Below are positions 4,419-25,771 of a DNA stretch of 29,819 nucleotides, piece after piece. This DNA is from a virus. The stretch is taken from positions 1 through 29,819 of IMG/VR virus record IMGVR_UViG_3300033143_001973, one strand, 5' to 3'. Position numbers and translations under genes: made by a program. Under the pieces are notes generated by a model. That model was not told where the DNA came from, searched no databases, and saw only the letters and a list, made by a program, of their open reading frames with translations. Every line of letters starts with the position of its first letter. Position 1 is the stretch's first letter.

Positions 4419-5114
4419 TTAAGAGTTTAGATTAAATGTATATTGAGGCTTAACTGGTTTAAGGGCTCCGGTAGAAGGATCCCAGTCTGGATTGTTTCTG
4501 TTGACAACATTATTAGTTATCCTAGACCAGTCAACATTACCTAAACCTGTGTCCATACCCGGTTGTGCAGGCGTATTCATTGGAATAACCTGACCGGTAT
4601 AAGGTATCTCATTACTCCTCGGCATCCTATTCATCATATCAAAAGACTGCTTACCGCTCTGTTGTAATCCAGAATACTCAAGGCTGTCAATATAGTTCAT
4701 GATCTGTGAGTTCCTAGAAGCGTAGTCACCCATAGCCTTGCTACCTTGTTGCATCATAGCTTTAGGCCCGACATCACCCATAGCACCCATAGACATAGTA
4801 TTATCCATAATAGAACCACCTCTTTGGCCAGGTCTCCCATACATAGCCTCCTTAGATTGTAACAACTGACGGTTCCTTATCTGATCTAAAAGGATCTGCA
4901 TGCCGGGGGGAAGTCTGCCAGCCTCATAGTTCAAAGCACCTTGCTGGCCCATCTGCGCCATGTACTTCATATTAGTTGCATCATACGGAGAGGGTGTCAT
5001 CATAGGAAGGTCATATCCCATCTCTCCATCTCTTGCACTACTGTTTTTTATTGCGCTACTTGCCGCTCCTGCTCCGACGGTGATAACTCCTGCTGCGATA
5101 GCTGCCCAAGACAT
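4419..5114 (-). CDS. Small internal virion protein with Ala/Gly-rich N-terminal helix (gp14-like position)
   Basis: The 231-aa product begins MSWAAIAAGVITVGAGAASS, a hydrophobic Ala/Gly-rich stretch like the start of podovirus gp14-type internal core proteins, which help form the channel for DNA ejection. The rest is Met/Gln/Ser/Asn-rich, including a methionine-rich patch around residues 100-125, and has no known domain. The start is set by GGAGG five nt upstream and lies 67 nt inside the preceding cupin gene, an unusually long overlap. The resemblance to gp14 is in composition and position only; I did not detect clear homology. Confidence 0.75.
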   Translation of the reverse strand: MSWAAIAAGVITVGAGAASSAIKNSSARDGEMGYDLPMMTPSPYDATNMKYMAQMGQQGALNYEAGRLPPGMQILLDQIRNRQLLQSKEAMYGRPGQRGGSIMDNTMSMGAMGDVGPKAMMQQGSKAMGDYASRNSQIMNYIDSLEYSGLQQSGKQSFDMMNRMPRSNEIPYTGQVIPMNTPAQPGMDTGLGNVDWSRITNNVVNRNNPDWDPSTGALKPVKPQYTFNLNS

Positions 5115-5593
5115 ATGTCCTCCTTTTCTAAGCCTAATTCCTCATAGCTTTTTGCTATAACTTGGTTTTCAATTTTATCTAAATCCGTTTCATTAGTAAC
5201 ATGAACGGTTGTCCAAACAACTTCCGTATAAGTTCTAAGTATTCTCTTTGTTCCGGCCATAGTAATACCTTGATACGGAGCTTTGATCCTTTGTATTCCT
5301 GACTCTGTGAGTACATCAACCTCACCCTTCATTACAAAATATGGATGCGTAACCTTATGGATCTTACTTGTCATAACAATATCAGCCGGGATCGTAATGG
5401 TCCTGACATAAGCGCCGTCAACAAACTTATGCTCTAGTGGAAAACAATCCTCATACATAGCACCTGTGACCTTGCCAAGTTCTTTCTCAAATGCTTCAAC
5501 CCCACCGCGAAACTTCTCAGGTGAGACTGACGTATCCGAGGTTTTTTTTGGCTGTAACAACGTACAACCTTTTTGTTCCGGCACCATCGTCAT
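5048..5593 (-). CDS. Cupin-like virion-module protein
   Basis: This frame encodes 181 aa. Residues about 50-130 read as one cupin-type beta barrel: a first strand region with HKF and RTITIPAD, then HPYFVMKGEVDVLTE (the usual HxxxVxxGxxxV pattern) and a closing GTKRILRTYTEVVWTTVHV. Such single-domain cupins occur in structural clusters of other phages, where their role is unclear. The ATG at 5593 has only a weak SD and lies inside the preceding 77-aa gene (77-nt overlap). The first 20 or so residues look like out-of-frame sequence, so the true N-terminus may be downstream or come from a fusion with that gene through an A8 run (see finding). The last 22 residues overlap the following gene. Confidence 0.7.
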   Translation of the reverse strand: MTMVPEQKGCTLLQPKKTSDTSVSPEKFRGGVEAFEKELGKVTGAMYEDCFPLEHKFVDGAYVRTITIPADIVMTSKIHKVTHPYFVMKGEVDVLTESGIQRIKAPYQGITMAGTKRILRTYTEVVWTTVHVTNETDLDKIENQVIAKSYEELGLEKEDICLGQLSQQELSPSEQERQVAQ

Positions 5594-5750
5594 AGATAAT
5601 TACCTGTCCTTCTGATACTGATTTAACTGTTGGTAATATAGCGGTATGCTTAACAGACATAGCTTGTGTTCGTATGTCGTCGAGAACATTGTTAAGCGCA
5701 CTAACTTGTGAGTTGTCCAAGCTTGTAACATCTGATGTTTTATCTATCAT
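5517..5750 (-). CDS. Small virion-module protein, 77 aa
   Basis: The gene starts in a TAATG overlap with the stop of the nozzle gene. The product begins MIDKTSDVTSLDNSQVSALN and has a helical first half. A short beta-rich second half (GQVIIYDDGAGTKRLYVVTA) ends in a natural-looking terminal strand, KNLGYVSLT. I do not recognise a family. Near its end the mRNA has eight A residues where this frame and the cupin frame meet, so it could be the N-terminal part of a longer 77-aa/cupin fusion if frameshifting occurs or the run is miscounted. Confidence 0.65.
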   Translation of the reverse strand: MIDKTSDVTSLDNSQVSALNNVLDDIRTQAMSVKHTAILPTVKSVSEGQVIIYDDGAGTKRLYVVTAKKNLGYVSLT

Positions 5751-8700
5751 TATATAATAGTCCTATGTGGTGAGAACAAACCTTTAATCTCTGATATCTT
5801 AAATGAGTAAAGATCATTCTTCTGTACTTCAAAGTTAACTTCTTTTCCGTATGCTGTAGATGGGAAATAGCTATCCCATTGGGTAGGGTATTCATCAAGA
5901 GGAATAACAAATGATCCGCTTGCGTTCTCTGTTTCCCATAATATGTTAAAAGAACCTTGTTCCCCAACATGCCTACTGATAATCTTCTTAAAGATTTTGT
6001 CCATTGATGGCATATTGAAGTTCCTAAGTCCTATGACATACCGGAAGTTAACGGAAGTTTCTGCTATCGTAATGCCTCCATGATATTCATACTTTACCAC
6101 ATATCCATCAGTAAAGTAAACACGCGGATTAGAAACTTGCGTGTCCGTTGCAGTAAACTCTATCTTATATTGGAACCAAACACTTGCGCTTGATAGTATG
6201 TCACTGCCATTAGGATTAGTTAGGCCGGCAGACCAAACTGCACCCTCACAGGTCGCTTGATCTATACCGGTCCTTGTGTGTAAAATTATGTCATCTGATC
6301 CCTCAGTATCTTCGTTCCAAAAGATATTCAAGAGAGTATCAGCATCAATCTGCTGCGATGGAGATACCCACGTTCCCTCTGTGTATGTATTGCTATCCGC
6401 GTCATTGTAAGGCTTCATCAATCCTAAAACTTTCTTCATAAGTCTAAAGGTAGTAGAAGGAGGATCACCTAAATCTGATTCTGCGCTCTCTAATGTGACA
6501 ATATGTGTATGAGGCGAGGCATACCCTGTTGCATGATACCCGTCATTCCCCCAAGTAGCGCTCTCTGTACTTGTTTCAAACACTCCGGCTGTATGCGTAT
6601 GGCTGAAGTTAGCAGCATCACCTGTCGCTGGAGAACTGTCACCTATCTTGAGGAATCTCCCATCATACGTAGTATCTTCAATCCAGCCGTTGCCAGGAGT
6701 GCCTGCAGAAGCAAATAGAGCATAGCAATACTTATCCACACCATCCCAAGAACTCGTTTCACCGACCTTCTTAATGAGCGATAGGGCAACATAATCAACC
6801 TCCCAAGTGTCATTTGTTTCTGTGCTCAAGGCACCTGTAACCGTATGGTTGTGGCCATATCTAGGACCATTCGTACCGCTATCAGATTGAGCAAGGTAAC
6901 CGGACGCTGTTCCTGTTGGTATACTGAACGTATGGCTGTGAGTAGAGGACACGGGTGTTCCTAAGTCAGTTAATCCTTGAGTAATATAGTACCCTATGTT
7001 CGATGATTCTCTCCACCCTTCTGGTGCTGTGGCTTGATCCCACAAGATTGATGCTCCATCAGGAAACTCATACTCAACGGTAGTGTTGTTTTTCTTAAAC
7101 ATCCTATATAAAATACTTCTAGGGATAGGATTAGAGCTGTTAGAATTTGAACCAACCTCGTGCGTATGAGCAGACACAGCTGCTGAATTAGAATCACCAT
7201 AGTTTGTACTCGTACCAAACCACATCTCAATTGAACCAGAAAGATAATGGTTATGATCTGTTCCTGCATCAACAGTTCCGGCTGTCGTGCTGATCTTAAT
7301 AAGCTGATCTTCCAATCCTGTTAGCTCTGTCCAGCCACTTCCCGGCTCACCGGACTCGTTATCCCAAAAAATTATAATATCATCAGGAATAGGATCAGAA
7401 GAAACCGGAGCACCAATCTCGATATAAGGGGAGTTCTCTGTTCCACCAATAAACACATCGTGCGTATCATCAGCAGGCGTGACAGAATCAAAGTAGTTCT
7501 CACAATCTGTCTTTGTTCTTAACCTATAAAAGCTATTGGTGTCCTTCTCTTTTAGTACGAACCCATTGACCGAATCACCCATAAACAAGTCACCAACTTC
7601 ATCGTCACCCGATCGGGATGCAAAGCAGTTAGGCCCGGTTATGTCTGTACCGGTCCACATATCATAAGCCAAGGCCTCTCTTTTAAGATTATAAACAATC
7701 ATTCTATTGTGTGTCTCAGACGCTGAAGTTTTATCGGTGTATGCTGCTAAGAAGTTCTCTTTGTGGAAATACCCAACAACATCGCTGTAATTAGCCGGAA
7801 GAATATCCCCGGTATCAAATTCATCAAAGATAGGTTGTGCGCTTGCACCGTCAAACATATACCAGTGATCCCAACCTAAGAAGATAACACCGTTAGGTGA
7901 CTGGGTGATTGACCATTGAGCCGGACTTCCGATCCAAGCAATAGGATCATCAGCGTACCACGTTGCTGGATCCGCACCAGATACAGCGGAAGTAACATGA
8001 ATCTTACGGATAGAGTTCTTCTTAATGCAGATCATACGATCAAGCTGAATAGGAATACCCATGATTTCATCACCATCATCAGGGCTGATCTCCATATAAT
8101 CTAAGTTCGTGTGCTGCTGTATGTAATGAGGAAGATAGGTGAAGCTGTAATAAATCTTGCTCGTATTTGAAGGATCTCCAGTTATAAACACTCGTTCTCT
8201 ATGTAATTTTAGGATAGAACCTTTCGGCATATCATCAGTAATTGCTGGATAGGCAGTCGTAAGTGATCCATCCGCGATATTATCTGAATATGTTGTCGTG
8301 GTATTATCTGCGAGGGTTGCGAGGAGTTTCAATGCAGAACCATTACCTTCCGTTCGATAGATCTTCCGGTTGGTTGTACCTACGGGGCCTAAGGGGATTT
8401 CTGACAATTCTATCCTGAGATTTGTTGCGTCTGTTGAGACAGTATTTGATATTGCTCCCATATTTGCAGCGTCATCATCATAGGTAATAGCATAATAGTA
8501 ATCAGCATTGGCATCTAAGCTTCCACCAGCAGCGCCTAGGATTGCCTTACAGCCACCCAACTCCCAAGTAACGTTGTCTGACTCACCATCCCACGACCAT
8601 ATGTTATCAAAACCATTAGAGACAATTAGCTGATCTTGATAGGTAAGGAAAGAACACCGCTTGCTTTCTGTTAAATCTGTACGGATAACCGTAGCAACAC

Positions 8701-8995
8701 CGGAATCTGTTATAGAATAAGCATCTGTTCCGGACACAGCTACCCACGTAGCCAAACCACCAGAGGTATAATAACGATATGCACCAACAACAGGCTTACC
8801 TAAAATTCCACCAAGAACAATATTGTTTAGATAAGAAGATGGTTCCCTCTTGTTAACAGCTCCAGGCTCGTTCTCAAAACGACAGTTCTGAGCAGCCTCA
8901 ACCCACTTACTTTTAAGCTCAAGGTCCTCGGCCTTAGCGTTCATACCAGGGATTGTCTTGATATACCATTCTTTTACAATAGCGGATATTCCCAT
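5750..8995 (-). CDS. Nozzle/stabilisation-type tail protein with three inserted HxH collar-like modules
   Basis: This 1081-aa protein starts at a TAATG overlap with the adaptor gene. Residues 1-500 are beta-rich and begin with a pattern typical of P22 gp10-like and podovirus nozzle proteins: a short helix, then WVEAAQNCRFENEPGAVNKREP and propeller-like strands (QDQLIVSNGFDNIWSWDG, LHRERVFITGD, VIFLGWDHWYMFDG). Residues about 870-1081 resume this fold. Between them, about 500-865, lie three roughly 110-residue modules. Each has a W/F-x-P-x-GW segment, a loop with two HxH motifs (DHNH/HTH, HSH/HNH, HTH/HTH) and a closing LYRMFKK, LSLIKK or FRLMKK. HxH pairs bind iron in T4 gp37 tips and the first element recalls tail-collar domains. 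The insertion makes it longer than typical nozzles. Nozzle role is by position and pattern; receptor binding is inferred. Confidence 0.8.
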   Translation of the reverse strand: MGISAIVKEWYIKTIPGMNAKAEDLELKSKWVEAAQNCRFENEPGAVNKREPSSYLNNIVLGGILGKPVVGAYRYYTSGGLATWVAVSGTDAYSITDSGVATVIRTDLTESKRCSFLTYQDQLIVSNGFDNIWSWDGESDNVTWELGGCKAILGAAGGSLDANADYYYAITYDDDAANMGAISNTVSTDATNLRIELSEIPLGPVGTTNRKIYRTEGNGSALKLLATLADNTTTTYSDNIADGSLTTAYPAITDDMPKGSILKLHRERVFITGDPSNTSKIYYSFTYLPHYIQQHTNLDYMEISPDDGDEIMGIPIQLDRMICIKKNSIRKIHVTSAVSGADPATWYADDPIAWIGSPAQWSITQSPNGVIFLGWDHWYMFDGASAQPIFDEFDTGDILPANYSDVVGYFHKENFLAAYTDKTSASETHNRMIVYNLKREALAYDMWTGTDITGPNCFASRSGDDEVGDLFMGDSVNGFVLKEKDTNSFYRLRTKTDCENYFDSVTPADDTHDVFIGGTENSPYIEIGAPVSSDPIPDDIIIFWDNESGEPGSGWTELTGLEDQLIKISTTAGTVDAGTDHNHYLSGSIEMWFGTSTNYGDSNSAAVSAHTHEVGSNSNSSNPIPRSILYRMFKKNNTTVEYEFPDGASILWDQATAPEGWRESSNIGYYITQGLTDLGTPVSSTHSHTFSIPTGTASGYLAQSDSGTNGPRYGHNHTVTGALSTETNDTWEVDYVALSLIKKVGETSSWDGVDKYCYALFASAGTPGNGWIEDTTYDGRFLKIGDSSPATGDAANFSHTHTAGVFETSTESATWGNDGYHATGYASPHTHIVTLESAESDLGDPPSTTFRLMKKVLGLMKPYNDADSNTYTEGTWVSPSQQIDADTLLNIFWNEDTEGSDDIILHTRTGIDQATCEGAVWSAGLTNPNGSDILSSASVWFQYKIEFTATDTQVSNPRVYFTDGYVVKYEYHGGITIAETSVNFRYVIGLRNFNMPSMDKIFKKIISRHVGEQGSFNILWETENASGSFVIPLDEYPTQWDSYFPSTAYGKEVNFEVQKNDLYSFKISEIKGLFSPHRTII

Positions 8996-9729
8996 TATAT
9001 ATTCCTATATGATTTCATTATGATTTCATCATCCTCACGCTCGTTCTTCTTCTCAACACCATAGTCAACCAACTTCTTCATGTACTTATTCCACTGATCA
9101 TTAGCACGCTCAGCCCAACCACGATCCTCAAGTCCGGTTGCCACAGTAAAGTCTACGGCCGCAAGGTGAAGATTGATAGGTAATGTTGGGGAAACAGTAT
9201 CGTCAGACATATCAATGTGATCCTTTGAGTAATATATCTTAAGAGGAGCGCCATCATGCTGATCGCTTGGAGGAGGATAGATCCCAATAACATTTTCCTC
9301 CCGGCTCCAATAGTATTGAAGAGGCTCACTTGTTTGAGATTCATAGTTGTAGTGCGTCGTTCCACCACCATCAACATAGGTGTAACCTACAAGACTCTGC
9401 CATTCTTCTGACTCTACATCAAGATCAGGTCTTCGTGTAGGCTCAAGCCTCTTGTAGTCCTTACCTTCTCGCTTAAAGTAAACCTCATTGACAGCAAAGA
9501 TATTAGGATCCAAGGTGGATAGAGTGAACTCCGTCTTTGCTTCAGCAACAATGTTAGGTTCACAGCTCTGAATATTTATATATCCTGTGTCTCTAAGGCA
9601 CTTGGTTCTCCAAGCAATATTCTTACAGCCAAGGTTTATATAGTTATTGAGCTCTGCATCGCTCCAAAAGGCCGAGGTAGTTTCACCTAATCTCTTCCTG
9701 GATATATCCCGAATCTCTCCTCTTGTCAT
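8995..9729 (-). CDS. Head-tail adaptor (gp6/gp4-like tail-completion protein)
   Basis: I place the start at the ATG at 9727-9729, five nt after AGGAG; a GTG one codon earlier is too close to the SD. The product is 244 aa. Its N-terminus, MTRGEIRDISRKRLGETTSAFWSDAELN, has the helix, W/F-S-D-x-E-L-x-x-Y-I-N-x-G pattern seen across phage adaptor proteins that dock under the portal. A beta-rich middle (YFKREGKDYKRLEPTRRPDL, then a glycine-rich loop) and a C-terminal helical part with HLAAVDFTVATGLEDRGW follow, the usual order. It is one nt from the spanin-like gene and directly upstream of the nozzle gene, the expected neighbour. Confidence 0.85.
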   Translation of the reverse strand: MTRGEIRDISRKRLGETTSAFWSDAELNNYINLGCKNIAWRTKCLRDTGYINIQSCEPNIVAEAKTEFTLSTLDPNIFAVNEVYFKREGKDYKRLEPTRRPDLDVESEEWQSLVGYTYVDGGGTTHYNYESQTSEPLQYYWSREENVIGIYPPPSDQHDGAPLKIYYSKDHIDMSDDTVSPTLPINLHLAAVDFTVATGLEDRGWAERANDQWNKYMKKLVDYGVEKKNEREDDEIIMKSYRNI

Positions 9730-9920
9730 CACATCTCCTTTAGTTTTAACTGCATGACTTCGTTAAAGTAAAACTCTGACATGCAAACCGTACCATCCTC
9801 TTTAATCTCAATATCTGTCTGTGAAATAGGATAGACGGTAATTCCTTTACTTGCGCAGCTTACCAACAACAGCGTTGACATAAGAAGCACGCCTAGCCTT
9901 ATTAGTTTCCGCAAGAGCAT
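9729..9920 (-). CDS. Rz1-like outer-membrane lipoprotein (candidate o-spanin)
   Basis: The ATG at 9918-9920, seven nt after AGGAG, gives 63 aa; a longer TTG start at 9938 is less likely. Residues 1-21 are a basic, hydrophobic signal peptide (MLLRKLIRLGVLLMSTLLL) ending in the lipobox LVSC, with Cys22 as the lipidated residue. The mature part is only about 42 residues. Its pattern (VYPISQTDI, then SEFYFNEVMQ) occurs in small phage lipoproteins, although it lacks the proline richness of lambda Rz1. The gene begins 74 nt inside the preceding reading frame, as Rz1 does in Rz, and follows a holin-like gene. The spanin call rests on the lipobox, overlap and position. Confidence 0.65.
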   Translation of the reverse strand: MLLRKLIRLGVLLMSTLLLVSCASKGITVYPISQTDIEIKEDGTVCMSEFYFNEVMQLKLKEM

Positions 9921-10245: not shown

Positions 10246-12036
10246 TTATTCCTCCCCAGCTTTAATTTCATCGTATTTCATTCCCCAACCGGCATATGAA
10301 CCTTTCCGCATTGAAGGATGCCTTTTAACTTTTACAGGAAAGTTACACCTAGCACAGAAATAGAACTTATCCTCACCTCTGATGCTAAAGTTCCTGCCTG
10401 TAAATACATCATCTGAGTCAAGTTGCCTTGCTCCGTATTCTTTATATAAAAACGTTCCGCACTGAGGACAACCCCCGGTTGTGACGGGATCCTTGATATA
10501 GCGTACGATATCTACATGCAATGGAGAATTAGGTACACCGCTTGCTGAAATAGCATTAAGCTGTAACGTCTGCGGTCTAACGAAGTGAGTTGGATATGCG
10601 TAAGGAGAGTGGAGTGTCAAGGCCAAAGCAAACGATGATGAGTAGTCCGGACCAACCTCAGTCTCTGGTTCATTAACAGTCAACGCTAAGTCTAAGCTTG
10701 TTAATTGTCTCCAGACCTCTTCATCCCAAATAAGAACAATCTCTAACGGAACATCGTCAGGATGTACAAGCGCATCACCCGGAGCTAGTGCGTATATCCC
10801 AAGCTCAAGCGTGTCTGCGTAGAAGCGGGCGTTGTTAAAGGTGTTGTCAAGTATCCTGCCTGTAATTTCTATCGGAGATTCTACAATTTCCGTAGACGAT
10901 ATTGAAAGGCTTGGCTGAAGAACATTAAGGTCTCCCTGTAAATCTAAGTAAGTTGCCTCTCCCCATGGATTAAGGGCATTGCTCGGGCAAGCTACCCTGT
11001 TAAAGTCAACGGCGTGAACAACAATAGACCTAACGTTATTTAGATAGACTGTCCATGGTTCATAGAGATACGCGCCCCAAGACAACGCAACTCTCATCTC
11101 TACTATGGTGTCTCTATTATATGGTTCTATATCACAGATACGCATTAGATGCGTTTCCCATACGTCCGCTGTTCTTATCTCAATGTTACGGCTCCATACG
11201 AATCCACTCTCTCCGCCCTCATCCTCAAAGATGATGGCCATAAACCTGTTGTCAAGTGGGTCTAATTGAGGGTCCGTAACATACTCTACCGAATACACGT
11301 CTGCGGCTATCCAGTCAGTAAGGCTCAAGTCTAGTTTGTACGGCAACACAGGATCGTAACGCAGCGAAGTAAGAATAAGAGGATCAGATAACTCCACAAC
11401 GATATTGGCAGTAAATGTACCCCAAGCAGTTCCGTTCATTTCTAGTGTATCAGGCTGAACAGTTGCGTCTAGGTTGGCTGGAGCCGCTGATACGTCATAT
11501 ATAAACGCCCACGTTCTGCTAGTTCTCGCACCTTCATATGTGTAAGAGCAGGCATAGGAGTAAACTCTAATCCCAGTTACGTTGTTCCATGTTCCTGTAA
11601 CAGTTGGTGTTGAAGTGTGTTCTTCACTTGGCTGGCTATCACCACCATAATAAGGATCCGTATAGCTCCACACCTCAGTCCATACACCACCCATCCGGAA
11701 CTTGATAGAATGATATATCTGAGGTTGGACACCTCGGTTGGCATAGTTGCCTGAATAAGCGTTGCTTTGACCGTATATCTTTGCAGAGAACTCCCCTAAG
11801 GTTGTAGGAGTAGTCCATGTGTGGTCAACTGTGGCTGAGCACACACCCCACTCGTGACCTTCACCAGATGCTAACTGACTGATTCCATAGTAAGTAGAGT
11901 AATCTCCATCGTAGGAATCAGGGCCAGTGCCATAGAAATACTGAGAATATCCGCCACCCTGTTCCACACCTCCTTGTGTGAACCATGTTCTTGAGGCTGA
12001 GTGAACTACACCTGGTTGGTCTATTATATTGGCCAT
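10246..12036 (-). CDS. Tail/fibre protein with LxLxxxLxxP repeats and C-terminal zinc ribbon
   Basis: This 596-aa protein starts in a TAATG overlap with the repeat protein before it. Residues 1-185 are Tyr/Gly/Ser/Trp-rich and beta-like (e.g. EWGVCSATVDHTWTTP, WSYTDPYYGGD), resembling a carbohydrate-binding or discoidin-like jelly roll. Residues about 190-505 contain strands of the repeat type found in neighbouring genes (SLDLALTVNEPETEVGP, FALALTLHSPYAYP). The C-terminus has CPQC at 523-526 and CARC at 561-564, a Cys4 zinc ribbon, then a basic tail. It is probably a surface-exposed tail appendage. A zinc ribbon at the end of such a protein is unusual and may anchor or stabilise the oligomer. 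Function is inferred. Confidence 0.75.
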   Translation of the reverse strand: MANIIDQPGVVHSASRTWFTQGGVEQGGGYSQYFYGTGPDSYDGDYSTYYGISQLASGEGHEWGVCSATVDHTWTTPTTLGEFSAKIYGQSNAYSGNYANRGVQPQIYHSIKFRMGGVWTEVWSYTDPYYGGDSQPSEEHTSTPTVTGTWNNVTGIRVYSYACSYTYEGARTSRTWAFIYDVSAAPANLDATVQPDTLEMNGTAWGTFTANIVVELSDPLILTSLRYDPVLPYKLDLSLTDWIAADVYSVEYVTDPQLDPLDNRFMAIIFEDEGGESGFVWSRNIEIRTADVWETHLMRICDIEPYNRDTIVEMRVALSWGAYLYEPWTVYLNNVRSIVVHAVDFNRVACPSNALNPWGEATYLDLQGDLNVLQPSLSISSTEIVESPIEITGRILDNTFNNARFYADTLELGIYALAPGDALVHPDDVPLEIVLIWDEEVWRQLTSLDLALTVNEPETEVGPDYSSSFALALTLHSPYAYPTHFVRPQTLQLNAISASGVPNSPLHVDIVRYIKDPVTTGGCPQCGTFLYKEYGARQLDSDDVFTGRNFSIRGEDKFYFCARCNFPVKVKRHPSMRKGSYAGWGMKYDEIKAGEE

Positions 12037-15779: not shown

Positions 15780-17786
15780 TTACTTGTATAGCCATAGACT
15801 ACCACGCCATACTCCGACTAAGACCTTTCCTTGAGTATCTACTGATGTTCTATAGAAAGAAGTGCCCTGACCGGCTGGAACTGAAGGTGTTTTATCTGTC
15901 CAGTTTGAACCTGCGTCCACTGAGGTCTGAACACTGTTATCACCAACTGCGCAAAGGAAGTCTCCAGTTACATCTACGGCGGAGCCATCCCATGAACCTG
16001 CGTTCGTAGCTGTCCACGATACAGCCTTGTTCGTAGTTATGTACACACTTTCATAGTTTCCTGCAGCTATTGAACTTCCGTCATAGTTAGCGTCTATGCT
16101 GAGGTAATCTGTGTCTCCGCCGGCTGTTCCGTTAATCTGCGTCTCAGTCCAAGTTGATCCCCTGTCTGTTGATACGAACTGCTTGATACCCCAGCCACCA
16201 ACAACTATTGTTTGTCCATCGCCACTCACACCCGCTGAACCCCAGTCCACATCAACGTCACCATCCGGTTGAATCTCAGAGAATAAAGTGCCTGAGTTGG
16301 TTGAAAGCCATAGCCTGGAACCTTCGTCACAAGCTACAACAACACTTCCATCAGCACTACAACCTATACCAGACCATTGAGATCCTGTTCCAGCAGGCTC
16401 TACATTTGTCCAGTTGACACCGTAATCTGTTGACTTATAGAGAGGAACATCGTACCCACCAGCATAGATAATGCTTCCGTCATAACTGCAAGCTAATCCC
16501 CAAATGGAATCTGTAGCCAGGCTAGGTTGAATCTCACTCCAAGTAGACCCATCATCCGTTGATATACTCAAATGTGGTGTGTTATACTTACCAGAAGCAG
16601 CTATCAACGTACTCCCGTCTCCGCTAATCTTTACCTTAGAATACTCTTGATCTAGCTGGTAAGCAGCCTCCGCATCTATAAAGTTTGCTCCGCTATCTGT
16701 CGATAAGTACAAGCTCCCCTGATATGTTATCCCAGCAATCACAACAGAGCCATCAGCGTCCACGGCCACAGGACCCCAATATCTGTCAACGTCTCCTCCA
16801 TCCGGCTGTACATCAGTCCATGAAACCCCATTGTCAGTAGACTTCATTACTCTGCTAGGACCTGCACTTTGGCCTGAAGAATAGATAATACTTCCATCTG
16901 TATTGCTTCCATAATGCTGAGTGTAGACATTGTTATCTCCAGTAGGACGCGTCTCAGCCCATGATGTACCAAAGTTTGTCGATACGTACTGCCGAGCATT
17001 TCCTTCCCATGCAATTAGAACGCTTGCATCAGGAGACATCCAGACTCTTTTCCATGATTCATTAGCTGCGCCAATAGGCGTTGTTTCTGTCCAGGTTGAA
17101 CCGGCATTAGAGGATGTGTAGATTCTTCCATTATTAACAGCTGCAACCATATCCTGGCCGTCATTACTTACGCGCACATCATACCAGAACAAATTAGTTG
17201 CACCACCTGGCTGTGCCTCTGTCCACGAAGCTCCGCTATCTGTAGAGATCCACAATCTATTGTAGCCACAACCAGCAATTACAGTTGACCCATCAGAACT
17301 ACAGTCGGACACCCACGTTAAGTTCGAGTCTGTTCCTGCCGGTCTTCTTTCTGTCCAGTTAGCCCCATTATCAGTAGACTGCCATAGCCGACCAGAGTCA
17401 TCCCTGTCGCTTGCCCATATATGGTTTCCATCTTGGCTAATCTTAACGCAATCCCAATCTTGACCTGAAGCTGGTGAAACTTCTGTCCAATTCGCTCCGG
17501 TATCTGTTGACACCCACACTTCACTCGTTCCAACAACCTGTTTTGCTCCCGTGGAACTCATATCAGTTGAGGAGTAGGTCGTTTTATATTGAACATATGG
17601 CTCTATCTGGTACCAAGAACCACCGTTAACGATTTTCAGAGCTGACATTATCTCCGCTGTATCAGGTGTGATAACTGTTGGTGGAAGGGTTATTACCAAT
17701 GAAGGTGCATTAAGCGTCATAAGTATTGCGACAGCTCCCGATCCTGTGCCGTTGATTACCTCTGTTTTTGGTACGTATAATGTCAT
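15780..17786 (-). CDS. Asp-box (BNR-like) beta-propeller virion protein
   Basis: The product is 668 aa. A short N-terminal LxP-repeat segment (GAVAILMTLNAPSLVITLPP, about 18-37) leads into a propeller domain. From residue 92 I count thirteen Asp boxes of the form S-T-D-x-G-x-x-W-T-E, for example VSTDTGANWTEV, QSTDNGANWTER and KSTDYGVNWTNV, spaced about 40-50 residues. The last part ends GSLWLYK, a possible closing strand. Each blade also has SxDG..I.A. Thirteen boxes exceed one seven-bladed ring and suggest two propellers. Asp-box folds occur in sialidases, sortilins and glycan-binding proteins. No sialidase Arg triad is evident, so I call it a likely host-surface binding appendage rather than an enzyme. 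Confidence 0.8.
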   Translation of the reverse strand: MTLYVPKTEVINGTGSGAVAILMTLNAPSLVITLPPTVITPDTAEIMSALKIVNGGSWYQIEPYVQYKTTYSSTDMSSTGAKQVVGTSEVWVSTDTGANWTEVSPASGQDWDCVKISQDGNHIWASDRDDSGRLWQSTDNGANWTERRPAGTDSNLTWVSDCSSDGSTVIAGCGYNRLWISTDSGASWTEAQPGGATNLFWYDVRVSNDGQDMVAAVNNGRIYTSSNAGSTWTETTPIGAANESWKRVWMSPDASVLIAWEGNARQYVSTNFGTSWAETRPTGDNNVYTQHYGSNTDGSIIYSSGQSAGPSRVMKSTDNGVSWTDVQPDGGDVDRYWGPVAVDADGSVVIAGITYQGSLYLSTDSGANFIDAEAAYQLDQEYSKVKISGDGSTLIAASGKYNTPHLSISTDDGSTWSEIQPSLATDSIWGLACSYDGSIIYAGGYDVPLYKSTDYGVNWTNVEPAGTGSQWSGIGCSADGSVVVACDEGSRLWLSTNSGTLFSEIQPDGDVDVDWGSAGVSGDGQTIVVGGWGIKQFVSTDRGSTWTETQINGTAGGDTDYLSIDANYDGSSIAAGNYESVYITTNKAVSWTATNAGSWDGSAVDVTGDFLCAVGDNSVQTSVDAGSNWTDKTPSVPAGQGTSFYRTSVDTQGKVLVGVWRGSLWLYK

Positions 17787-23678: not shown

Positions 23679-23882
23679 TTAGGATTCTCTATCTATAACA
23701 TCATCAGGTAAATTCTTAATAGATTCATATGATTGAATCTTAGCCTGTATAAGAGGTAATTCATCAACATTACAAGTCCTAAGTTTTGTTAACTCAAAGG
23801 TAATCTTCTTGTCCAATTCTTCAACAACGCCGCCCCACAAAAGGCTTGATTTTAATTCTTTAGCTGTCTGTATATTCATCAT
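23679..23882 (-). CDS. Small helical protein after portal, 67 aa
   Basis: It starts in an overlap with the portal stop; two ATG codons in a row offer alternative starts. The product begins MMNIQTAKELKSSLLWGGVV and is helical throughout (EELDKKITFELTKLRTC, LPLIQAKIQSYESIKNLPDD). A 'W..vv.eL..ri......L..c...eLp..Q.riq..e.i..lP' pattern is typical of a small conserved protein placed just after phage portal genes, whose role is undetermined. Confidence 0.7.
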   Translation of the reverse strand: MMNIQTAKELKSSLLWGGVVEELDKKITFELTKLRTCNVDELPLIQAKIQSYESIKNLPDDVIDRES

Positions 23883-25771
23883 TGTCGTTGCATCCTCATA
23901 GGGTTTTGAACTGGTTGACCAACTTCAGGGGTTTGTCCTTTAGGTCTTTGTCCGGGTCCGGGAGGCCCTTGCTGTGCATCACCGGATTGACCGGCAGGTG
24001 GATTACCATTGAGCTCCATCATAATTTGCTCTTTGGACGCGCCTTCCTGTAATCTCTGTTGGATGTACTGCTGATCCTCAGGACTGAGTTGACCTGGTCC
24101 TGCTTGAACTGGTTTTTGCTGTATGATGATTTTAGAAATATCCTTAAATCCCATAAGCTCTGCAATCCTTCGATTAAGTTCCGCTTGATTGATCGTTCTG
24201 TCATTAGCTGAAACCTCCTTGAACCTTAGCAGTTGACCAATTTGTGATTCCTTGTTCAGCGTCTCACTGATCCCGGTCGGTATGACTTGAACCTTTGCGT
24301 GTAGCATCTCTGGTTTGACCAAAGCTGGTTCATCCTTCCCATCATTAGAAGTAACCTTGATCCACTCAGGCAAAGTCATAAACTGCTGTAAGTGAGATAG
24401 AAACATTATTGACATATTCGTCATTAAATCTACCTCAATTTTTTTGAGTACAGGTCTAAACCTAATTCCAGCAGCACCTTGGAGCATATTTAATCCGGCG
24501 GCAGTTTCCGTCTGATTCTTTTCAGTAGGCATAAGGGGAGCGCTGGCTCCGGTGGCCTCACGATAATCAGCTTTGGCAAGTTCTTCTTCTTTGTATGATG
24601 AAGCTGTGACATCAGGAGTGTCCATCCATCGTATCGAACTAACAGTATCTGACACTTTATGCCAGTGGCCGGGAGCGGAAATCTGTAGTTTTTTAACATT
24701 AATAAGAGGATCTGCACCATTATAGAATCCTTGCTTGTTCAAGACTAAGTCAACGTTGTCAAGTCTTTGGTTAACTATTTTATTCAACCGATCTTGTGTC
24801 GGTTTTCCAACAGTACCAATACCAACACCAAACCAACAAGGTTTAGATTCCGAAAAGAGATTAAACTTTGCAAATGGGGGATGTTGGAAATTGTAAGGAT
24901 TAGGGATTCCACGAACTTTTACTTTTCTGTTAACTATTGTTATCCAATATGGTACGGCTTTTCTTGTTACTGGTTTATCGTCCTGCGTGTACGATTCATC
25001 CCAAGGACCCCAGTAATGAAGTAGCTCATATTCATCACGCCTTTTCTTCTCAATAACTTTTCCGTCAGGATCAAGGAAGTTTGTGCTATCCATCCTTGTG
25101 CTCTCTGTCTTTAATGCTTCTGCTAAATTATTAAAATCTGATTCCGGTTGATCTGCCAACTGTTTCAAATACTCCGCATCGCAAAACTGCCTCCGTACAA
25201 GAGGCAGGCCGTCATTCATTTCTAATTTTGCCGGATGTGGAAACATCTCAAAAAAGTTTACGCTCTTGCAATCCGGTCTGCGATCAATGACAGCTAAATA
25301 TCTATCACCCTGTTTATTAACTTGCCAAGCCTTACGATACAAATACGGAACTTCAACATAGCCAGTACCAATTAAAGTGTTTTGCGTAAGAGAAGGTAAG
25401 CACTCACCCATAACATTAGCCATACGATAATAATGTTTCAGAGTATCTCTAATTAAAATTCCTTGTTCCTTAGAAACTTTACCATATACCGCAACATCAA
25501 TAGGGGCATCGTTAGGGAACAGCGCCGAGAAGATTCGTGGTGTAATAGTTTGTTCACTCGCGAACGTAATAGGACAATGAACTTGATTCATCCAGTCATA
25601 AGATCGACCTGGTGGAACATTGTTCCATTGATCAATAACCTTAGCAGCATCTTCAAATCTGTCTTTGTGGAATTTTTCATAACGCTGAAATTCCTCGACG
25701 ACAAATTCAACCATCTTGTCTTTCTTATCAGAAGTTCCGCTATAAGTATTTTCTTGTTTGTTCGCGCCCAT
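23879..25771 (-). CDS. Portal protein
   Basis: The product is 630 aa, starting from an ATG after GGGAG. It has the size and pattern of podovirus-type portals: a helical N-terminus (VVEEFQRYEKFHKDRFEDAA), a conserved WNNVPPGRSYDWMNQVHCPI segment, TLIGTGYVEVPYL and FFEMFPHPAKLEMNDG, HWHKVSDTVSSIRWMD, a long C-terminal helical and Gln/Pro-rich tail, and DYREATGASAPLMPTEKNQT, which recalls the ATGxxA loop of many portals. It forms the dodecameric channel at one vertex to which terminase and adaptor bind. It is preceded by a short protein gene and followed by scaffold genes, the normal place. Confidence 0.85.
   Translation of the reverse strand: MGANKQENTYSGTSDKKDKMVEFVVEEFQRYEKFHKDRFEDAAKVIDQWNNVPPGRSYDWMNQVHCPITFASEQTITPRIFSALFPNDAPIDVAVYGKVSKEQGILIRDTLKHYYRMANVMGECLPSLTQNTLIGTGYVEVPYLYRKAWQVNKQGDRYLAVIDRRPDCKSVNFFEMFPHPAKLEMNDGLPLVRRQFCDAEYLKQLADQPESDFNNLAEALKTESTRMDSTNFLDPDGKVIEKKRRDEYELLHYWGPWDESYTQDDKPVTRKAVPYWITIVNRKVKVRGIPNPYNFQHPPFAKFNLFSESKPCWFGVGIGTVGKPTQDRLNKIVNQRLDNVDLVLNKQGFYNGADPLINVKKLQISAPGHWHKVSDTVSSIRWMDTPDVTASSYKEEELAKADYREATGASAPLMPTEKNQTETAAGLNMLQGAAGIRFRPVLKKIEVDLMTNMSIMFLSHLQQFMTLPEWIKVTSNDGKDEPALVKPEMLHAKVQVIPTGISETLNKESQIGQLLRFKEVSANDRTINQAELNRRIAELMGFKDISKIIIQQKPVQAGPGQLSPEDQQYIQQRLQEGASKEQIMMELNGNPPAGQSGDAQQGPPGPGQRPKGQTPEVGQPVQNPMRMQRQ

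Follow-up and report, generated by a model that had tools for sequence, protein, structure and literature searches.

HxH motifs hold iron in pyocin fibres, in gp37 and in related spikes, where each site is octahedral and is formed by three symmetry copies of one HxH, each ion receiving six histidines from three chains; the characterised HxH tips named in that work all hold Fe or Zn (PMC6116203). The T4 gp37 tip, gp12 and the collar short tail fibres (PF07484) combine a P..G[WF] collar strand, HxH limbs and a closing strand, and three chains contribute one unit each. The tail fibre gp12 of Alteromonas phage R22Y has six HxH motifs, for which iron binding was proposed, and is one chain of an ordinary homotrimer with six sites per trimer (PMC11705849). 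In SU10, Trp839, Trp847 and Trp857 of one nozzle chain form a quasi-threefold star that docks one trimeric short fibre (PMC9509320); we confirmed the three residues in the sequence. We searched the literature for fibre tips that are pseudo-trimeric or embedded in a nozzle and met no such case; the nearest were SU10 and the pseudo-trimeric claw of mycobacteriophage Mysterious, which docks a trimeric fibre.

Here, we analysed a 29.8-kb virus record (the window) in which a nozzle protein contains three tandem modules of the collar/HxH plan. We propose that this insert is, quite likely, the tip of a short tail fibre, made as a single-chain pseudo-trimer and integrated in the nozzle chain. The modules share the strand, limbs and closing strand of gp37 and the collar fibres; however, the window nozzle supplies three units from one chain instead of one unit from each of three, has two HxH motifs per module unit compared with seven per gp37 chain, and carries its modules inside a nozzle and not at a fibre end. 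R22Y gp12 has the same number of HxH motifs as the insert but no three tandem modules. SU10 gp17/gp16 resembles the window family in the nozzle fold (Z 23.6) and in attaching the fibre after the propeller of one nozzle chain, whereas its fibre gp16 is a separate trimeric protein and the window tip would be part of the nozzle chain.

A nozzle protein with a three-module insert

The minus-strand ORF at 5750-8995 encodes 1081 aa, and by its predicted fold the product is a podovirus nozzle (Hc3). A whole-chain AF2 model built from 32 relatives (pLDDT 84.4, pTM 0.64) matched the Pa223, crAss001, P22, SU10, Pan3, VP1 and GP4 nozzles (VIA-align Z 22-27). Z reached 27.3 for Pa223, 24 for P22 gp10 and the crAss001 muzzle and 23.6 for SU10, with 416-449 residues aligned in these four. 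Together with the match to phrog_8040 (head closure Hc3, E 6e-7), fold matches at Z 23-27 bore out the label "nozzle" that the original prediction had given to this protein. The propeller occupies about aa 50-486, and the insert comes after it and before the C-terminal part. Nozzle homologues are known as hexamers. The SU10-type adaptor gene ends where the nozzle gene starts, and SU10-type portal, capsid and terminase genes lie elsewhere in the window, beyond these two. The genes and parts concerned are as follows.

23879..25771, minus strand: portal protein (SU10_portal PF23899, E 1.6e-13), context
8995..9732, minus strand: adaptor protein (SU10_adaptor PF24175, E 8.5e-11)
5750..8995, minus strand: nozzle (Hc3 / tail tube B-like) protein that carries the insert, 1081 aa, by fold and profile match
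7403..8995, minus strand: N-terminal part of the nozzle, aa 1-531, platform strands and seven-bladed beta-propeller (PDB chains that consist of the propeller alone match model 50-486)
7076..7399, minus strand: module 1, aa 533-640, PGSGW, HNH and HTH
6764..7075, minus strand: module 2, aa 641-744, PEGW, HSH and HNH
6410..6763, minus strand: module 3, aa 745-862, PGNGW, HTH and HTH
5753..6409, minus strand: C-terminal part of the nozzle, aa 863-1081
7247..7255, minus strand: HxH 1a, HNH, aa 581-583, proposed site A; invariant in the alignment of relatives
7160..7168, minus strand: HxH 1b, HTH, aa 610-612, proposed site B; second His invariant, first at least 90% (HxxH in L030)
6932..6940, minus strand: HxH 2a, HSH, aa 686-688, proposed site A; invariant in the alignment
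6845..6853, minus strand: HxH 2b, HNH, aa 715-717, proposed site B; invariant in the alignment
6593..6601, minus strand: HxH 3a, HTH, aa 799-801, proposed site A; invariant in the alignment
6503..6511, minus strand: HxH 3b, HTH, aa 829-831, proposed site B; invariant in the alignment

The insert, at about aa 533-862, consists of three homologous modules of 104-118 residues each. Profile-profile comparison gave E 1e-16 for modules 1 and 2, 3e-20 for modules 1 and 3 and 1e-14 for modules 2 and 3, which confirmed the earlier reading of three tandem modules with two HxH motifs each, six in total. The span of aa 500-865 given at that time does contain the three-module insert and was too wide, as the strand pair 514-527 directly before the insert belongs to the nozzle and is seen in module-less relatives too. 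The "P-x-GW" strand likewise holds as one P..GW per module, the wording being approximate for PGSGW, PEGW and PGNGW. The paired HxH motifs are spaced by 29, 29 and 30 aa across the three modules. When aa 497-866 were shuffled, HxH occurred 0.49 times on average, and six HxH were reached in 0 of 20,000 shuffles.

The kinship to collar and gp37-type tips that had been put forward earlier was upheld by profiles. A combined module profile scored 47 against canonical collar proteins (free, known phages), 61 against the modules of Actinoplanes phage phiAsp2 and 28 against the T4 gp37 tip (35 for module 2), whereas column-shuffled decoys reached maxima of 15-18. As in gp37, the collar strand is followed by an outgoing HxH limb, the tip, a returning HxH limb and, last, the closing strand. 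T4 gp37 (2xgf) was also the best PDB sequence match to the modules among 177,635 sequences, although a weak one (E 0.078). None of the three modules matched Pfam Collar PF07484 at E<=10, no Pfam family was found on single modules, and free single-module relatives match PF07484 only below its curated cut-off.

AF2 predicted the isolated insert confidently as a monomer (pLDDT 81.5, pTM 0.75), with low values only at the arm tips and chain ends. Foldseek of this model against the PDB gave no match at E<=0.001, a result that leaves room for an equivalent fold among solved structures. In VIA, small up-down beta-barrels weakly matched the HxH region (model 92-357, Z up to 4.7), as expected if six limbs share one bundle. 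Against BFVD, the only significant Foldseek matches were phiAsp2 Pas28 and Pas29 (E 2e-11 and 1e-10). These two proteins, annotated in the phiAsp2 record as "possible receptor recognizing protein; contains HXHY motifs", have three modules each, with four HxH motifs per module at matching spacing. Like the window nozzle, each strings three collar/HxH modules in tandem along one chain, the HxH motifs being in matching register; in contrast, they are not nozzles and contain four HxH motifs per module, whereas the window nozzle contains two. The three-module design of Pas28 and Pas29 occurs independently of the nozzle family. A literature search found no published discussion of a single-chain trimer for either protein.

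Arm-bearing, armless and module-less relatives

Scans of viral contigs yielded about 40 distinct nozzle relatives. A tblastn search of named phage records with the nozzle, adaptor and insert found no relative, and a scan of genome contigs for nozzle relatives found none either; therefore, the relatives are confined to uncultivated metagenomic virus contigs. They fall into three types. Arm-bearing nozzles (21 complete relatives) have three modules and 5-7 HxH motifs. The number of modules is exactly three in 21/21, with one extra HMM match in L018, and all six HxH motifs or more are present in 20/21, L030 having five. Among 20 distinct arm-bearers, the 12 histidines of the HxH motifs are 100% identical, whereas the sequence between them is 31% identical. 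Armless nozzles (about 10) keep all three scaffolds and lack the HxH arms in all three modules. Module-less nozzles have a short linker at the module position, so that relatives with zero modules, which the original prediction had suggested looking for, do exist.

Placed on the nozzle tree, the three types require about 9 changes, which fits receptor-binding parts that can be exchanged. Sisters that differ in type share nozzle identities of 0.69-0.78 and scaffold identities of only 0.36-0.40. Because the scaffolds of such pairs have diverged far beyond their nozzles, the cassette was probably swapped as one block; the same divergence weakens the argument that all-or-none arm loss alone proves cooperation between the arms.

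The armless relatives (L026, L033, L027, L021, L034, L024 and L066) have an extra domain of ~150 aa in module 3, which is probably an alternative binding domain. By eye this domain appeared discoidin-like, an assignment that we abandoned when profile searches of the PDB and Pfam brought up nothing clear. A separate addition was seen in L009 (6001-10581), a nozzle relative of 1527 aa with three modules and an extra N-terminal insert containing Laminin_G_3 lectin-like domains (E 6e-41), which makes the propeller part a further site of insertion.

The module-less type comprises eight distinct nozzles (L032, L065, L118, L120, L122, L123, L125 and L126). In each of them, a three-fold [TIVQL][IL][DN] repeat occupies the module site, beginning at the very residue where the modules begin in the other types (YIEIG-RTETIDELTGTIDDLTGTIDM vs YIEIG-APVSSDPIPDD), one element thus taking the place of the other at a single site. 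When each segment was shuffled, no more than 0.3% of the shuffles produced this pattern, which was defined after inspection. A fibre gene (STF) lies downstream of the nozzle in 8/8 of these loci and in 0 of about 25 module-bearing loci having at least 1 kb downstream. The nozzle led to L032 and L065, the repeat to L118 and STF itself to the other five; the first three alone give an exact probability of 3e-4 for this exclusion, ignoring shared ancestry.

In L123, L125 and L126, a free single-module collar protein is encoded between the nozzle and STF. L002 has both modules and a free collar protein, and we therefore dropped an exclusion of modules by any separate fibre; only the dock-associated fibre excludes modules. 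The repeat resembles the three-part dock of SU10 in type, and by this analogy the repeat loop may be a fibre dock. The SU10-type combination of three short hydrophobic repeats and a separate fibre is absent from the window protein. Since module-less and module-bearing loci differ in this way, tips would occur in this family either as separate chains on a three-part dock or as three tandem modules of the nozzle.

A putative arrangement of the modules

Based on these data, we provide a putative model for the insert. Each module would be a small collar/gp37-like unit that starts with the P..GW collar strand. The first HxH would sit on the limb leading out to a variable tip loop and the second on the limb leading back, and a closing strand (..LIKK/..RLMKK) would complete the unit. 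Ordinary fibres take one unit from each of three identical chains, and here all three would come from one chain. The three "a" motifs would then hold one metal in an octahedral His6 site and the three "b" motifs another, giving one tip and two metals per nozzle subunit and six tips and 12 metals per nozzle hexamer, with the variable tip loops contacting the host receptor. Module-less relatives instead have a short three-repeat loop at this point, similar to the dock of the SU10 short fibre, together with a fibre gene of its own; in the window, a permanently attached tip would have replaced the dock and its detachable trimeric fibre. Trimer-like packing, metal and receptor binding are the parts of this model that we infer. 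In known sites, each ion takes one HxH from each of three chains (PMC6116203), and a chain with three modules should therefore form one tip with two His6 sites; the "triplicate metal-binding tips" of the original prediction are probably wrong. A single shared tip is further suggested by the constant module number, the regular HxH spacing, arms that are kept or lost together, histidines that stay invariant amid divergent sequence, the confident prediction of the insert as a monomer and, weakly, its resemblance to one barrel. Additionally, the three modules of phiAsp2 Pas28 and Pas29 provide independent support.

Some observations argue against one shared tip. The all-or-none pattern of the arms may partly reflect exchange of the whole cassette, the repeat pattern is post hoc, and it was the fibre gene that led to five of the eight module-less loci. 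Moreover, there is no significant PDB Foldseek match and no Pfam Collar match, and L002 combines modules with a free collar. Modules of neighbouring subunits could also pair instead, and the original prediction of several metal tips per nozzle would hold if each module folded alone or paired with its counterparts in adjacent subunits as inter-chain trimers. As repeats, the modules separate clearly, hexameric nozzles bring many copies side by side, and gp37-type tips are inter-chain trimers (PMC6116203). Nevertheless, we consider three independent tips unlikely: AF2 gives a confident monomer for the isolated insert, the number of modules is fixed at three, also in the unrelated phiAsp2 proteins, and three copies per chain are needless for inter-chain trimers.

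A tip that shares one bundle may also function as a receptor-binding pseudo-trimer with no bound transition metal, the HxH pairs being a relic or binding only during folding. Armless relatives, which retain the three-module scaffold without HxH, point in this direction; however, the complete conservation of twelve histidines in an otherwise divergent arm, and the Fe or Zn held by all characterised tips named in PMC6116203, make a metal-free tip rather improbable. Least likely, and very doubtful in our opinion, are structural nozzle-extension domains comparable to the Ig-like domains of SU10 that straighten into the delivery tube, with HxH motifs that only stabilise the fold. The SU10 nozzle protein does hold several inserted domains (PMC9509320), and conserved histidines with variable loops would suit such a role. 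Yet SU10 has its extension domains between blades 2 and 3 of the propeller, whereas the window insert lies after the propeller. Moreover, the insert changes repeatedly across the nozzle tree, takes turns with a fibre gene and is similar to the tips of collar fibres.

As the original prediction proposed, a DNA gate and a probable receptor-binding tip would share one nozzle chain. Furthermore, it seems fairly probable that a homotrimeric metal-pinned tip was turned into a covalent single-chain pseudo-trimer in the nozzle, that relatives keep an ancestral-like alternative made up of a three-fold dock, a separate fibre and a free single-module tip, and that the same design was reached separately in phiAsp2. 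If true, this would be a natural homotrimer-to-single-chain conversion with both states within one family. Receptor recognition and the channel gate would reside in one polypeptide, and a binding signal could pass to the opening of the gate with no detachable fibre involved. In a single-chain tip, three arms would be free to diverge separately, which is impossible in a homotrimer. The insert would also lend itself, as a compact monomer, to tests for iron in phage tips. For annotation, a chain with three tandem HxH/collar modules may stand for a single tip.

Other genes around the nozzle

A small protein adjoining the nozzle (window 5048-5593, minus strand; L001 8013-8504; L065 7196-7666) matches phrog_12032 "short tail fiber" (E 1e-28) and also phrog_24280, and a cupin fold is a weak Pfam hint only. 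This protein is present in module-bearing and module-less relatives and is therefore not the exchanged fibre. The free fibre proteins encoded beside module-less nozzles in L120 (2199-2879), L122 (4115-4933), L123 (4349-4921) and L125 (4327-4926) have a hydrophobic, signal-peptide-like start followed by a conserved LPVLNEEL-like motif, which is odd for virion parts assembled in the cytoplasm. In L002, an ORF at 5355-5978, between the adaptor and nozzle genes, probably encodes an HNH homing endonuclease. The protein upstream of the adaptor (window 10246-12036, minus strand; L001 1527-3365; L003 1137-1841) contains a conserved C-terminal zinc-ribbon-like stretch (CPQCG...CSRC in L001, CPQCG...CARC in L003), which is unexplained inside a structural gene block. 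Within the structural block of the window, positions 15780-17786 (minus strand) encode a 668-aa protein with Sortilin-Vps10/BNR repeats (Pfam E 6e-29), a large beta-propeller that is unusual in phage.
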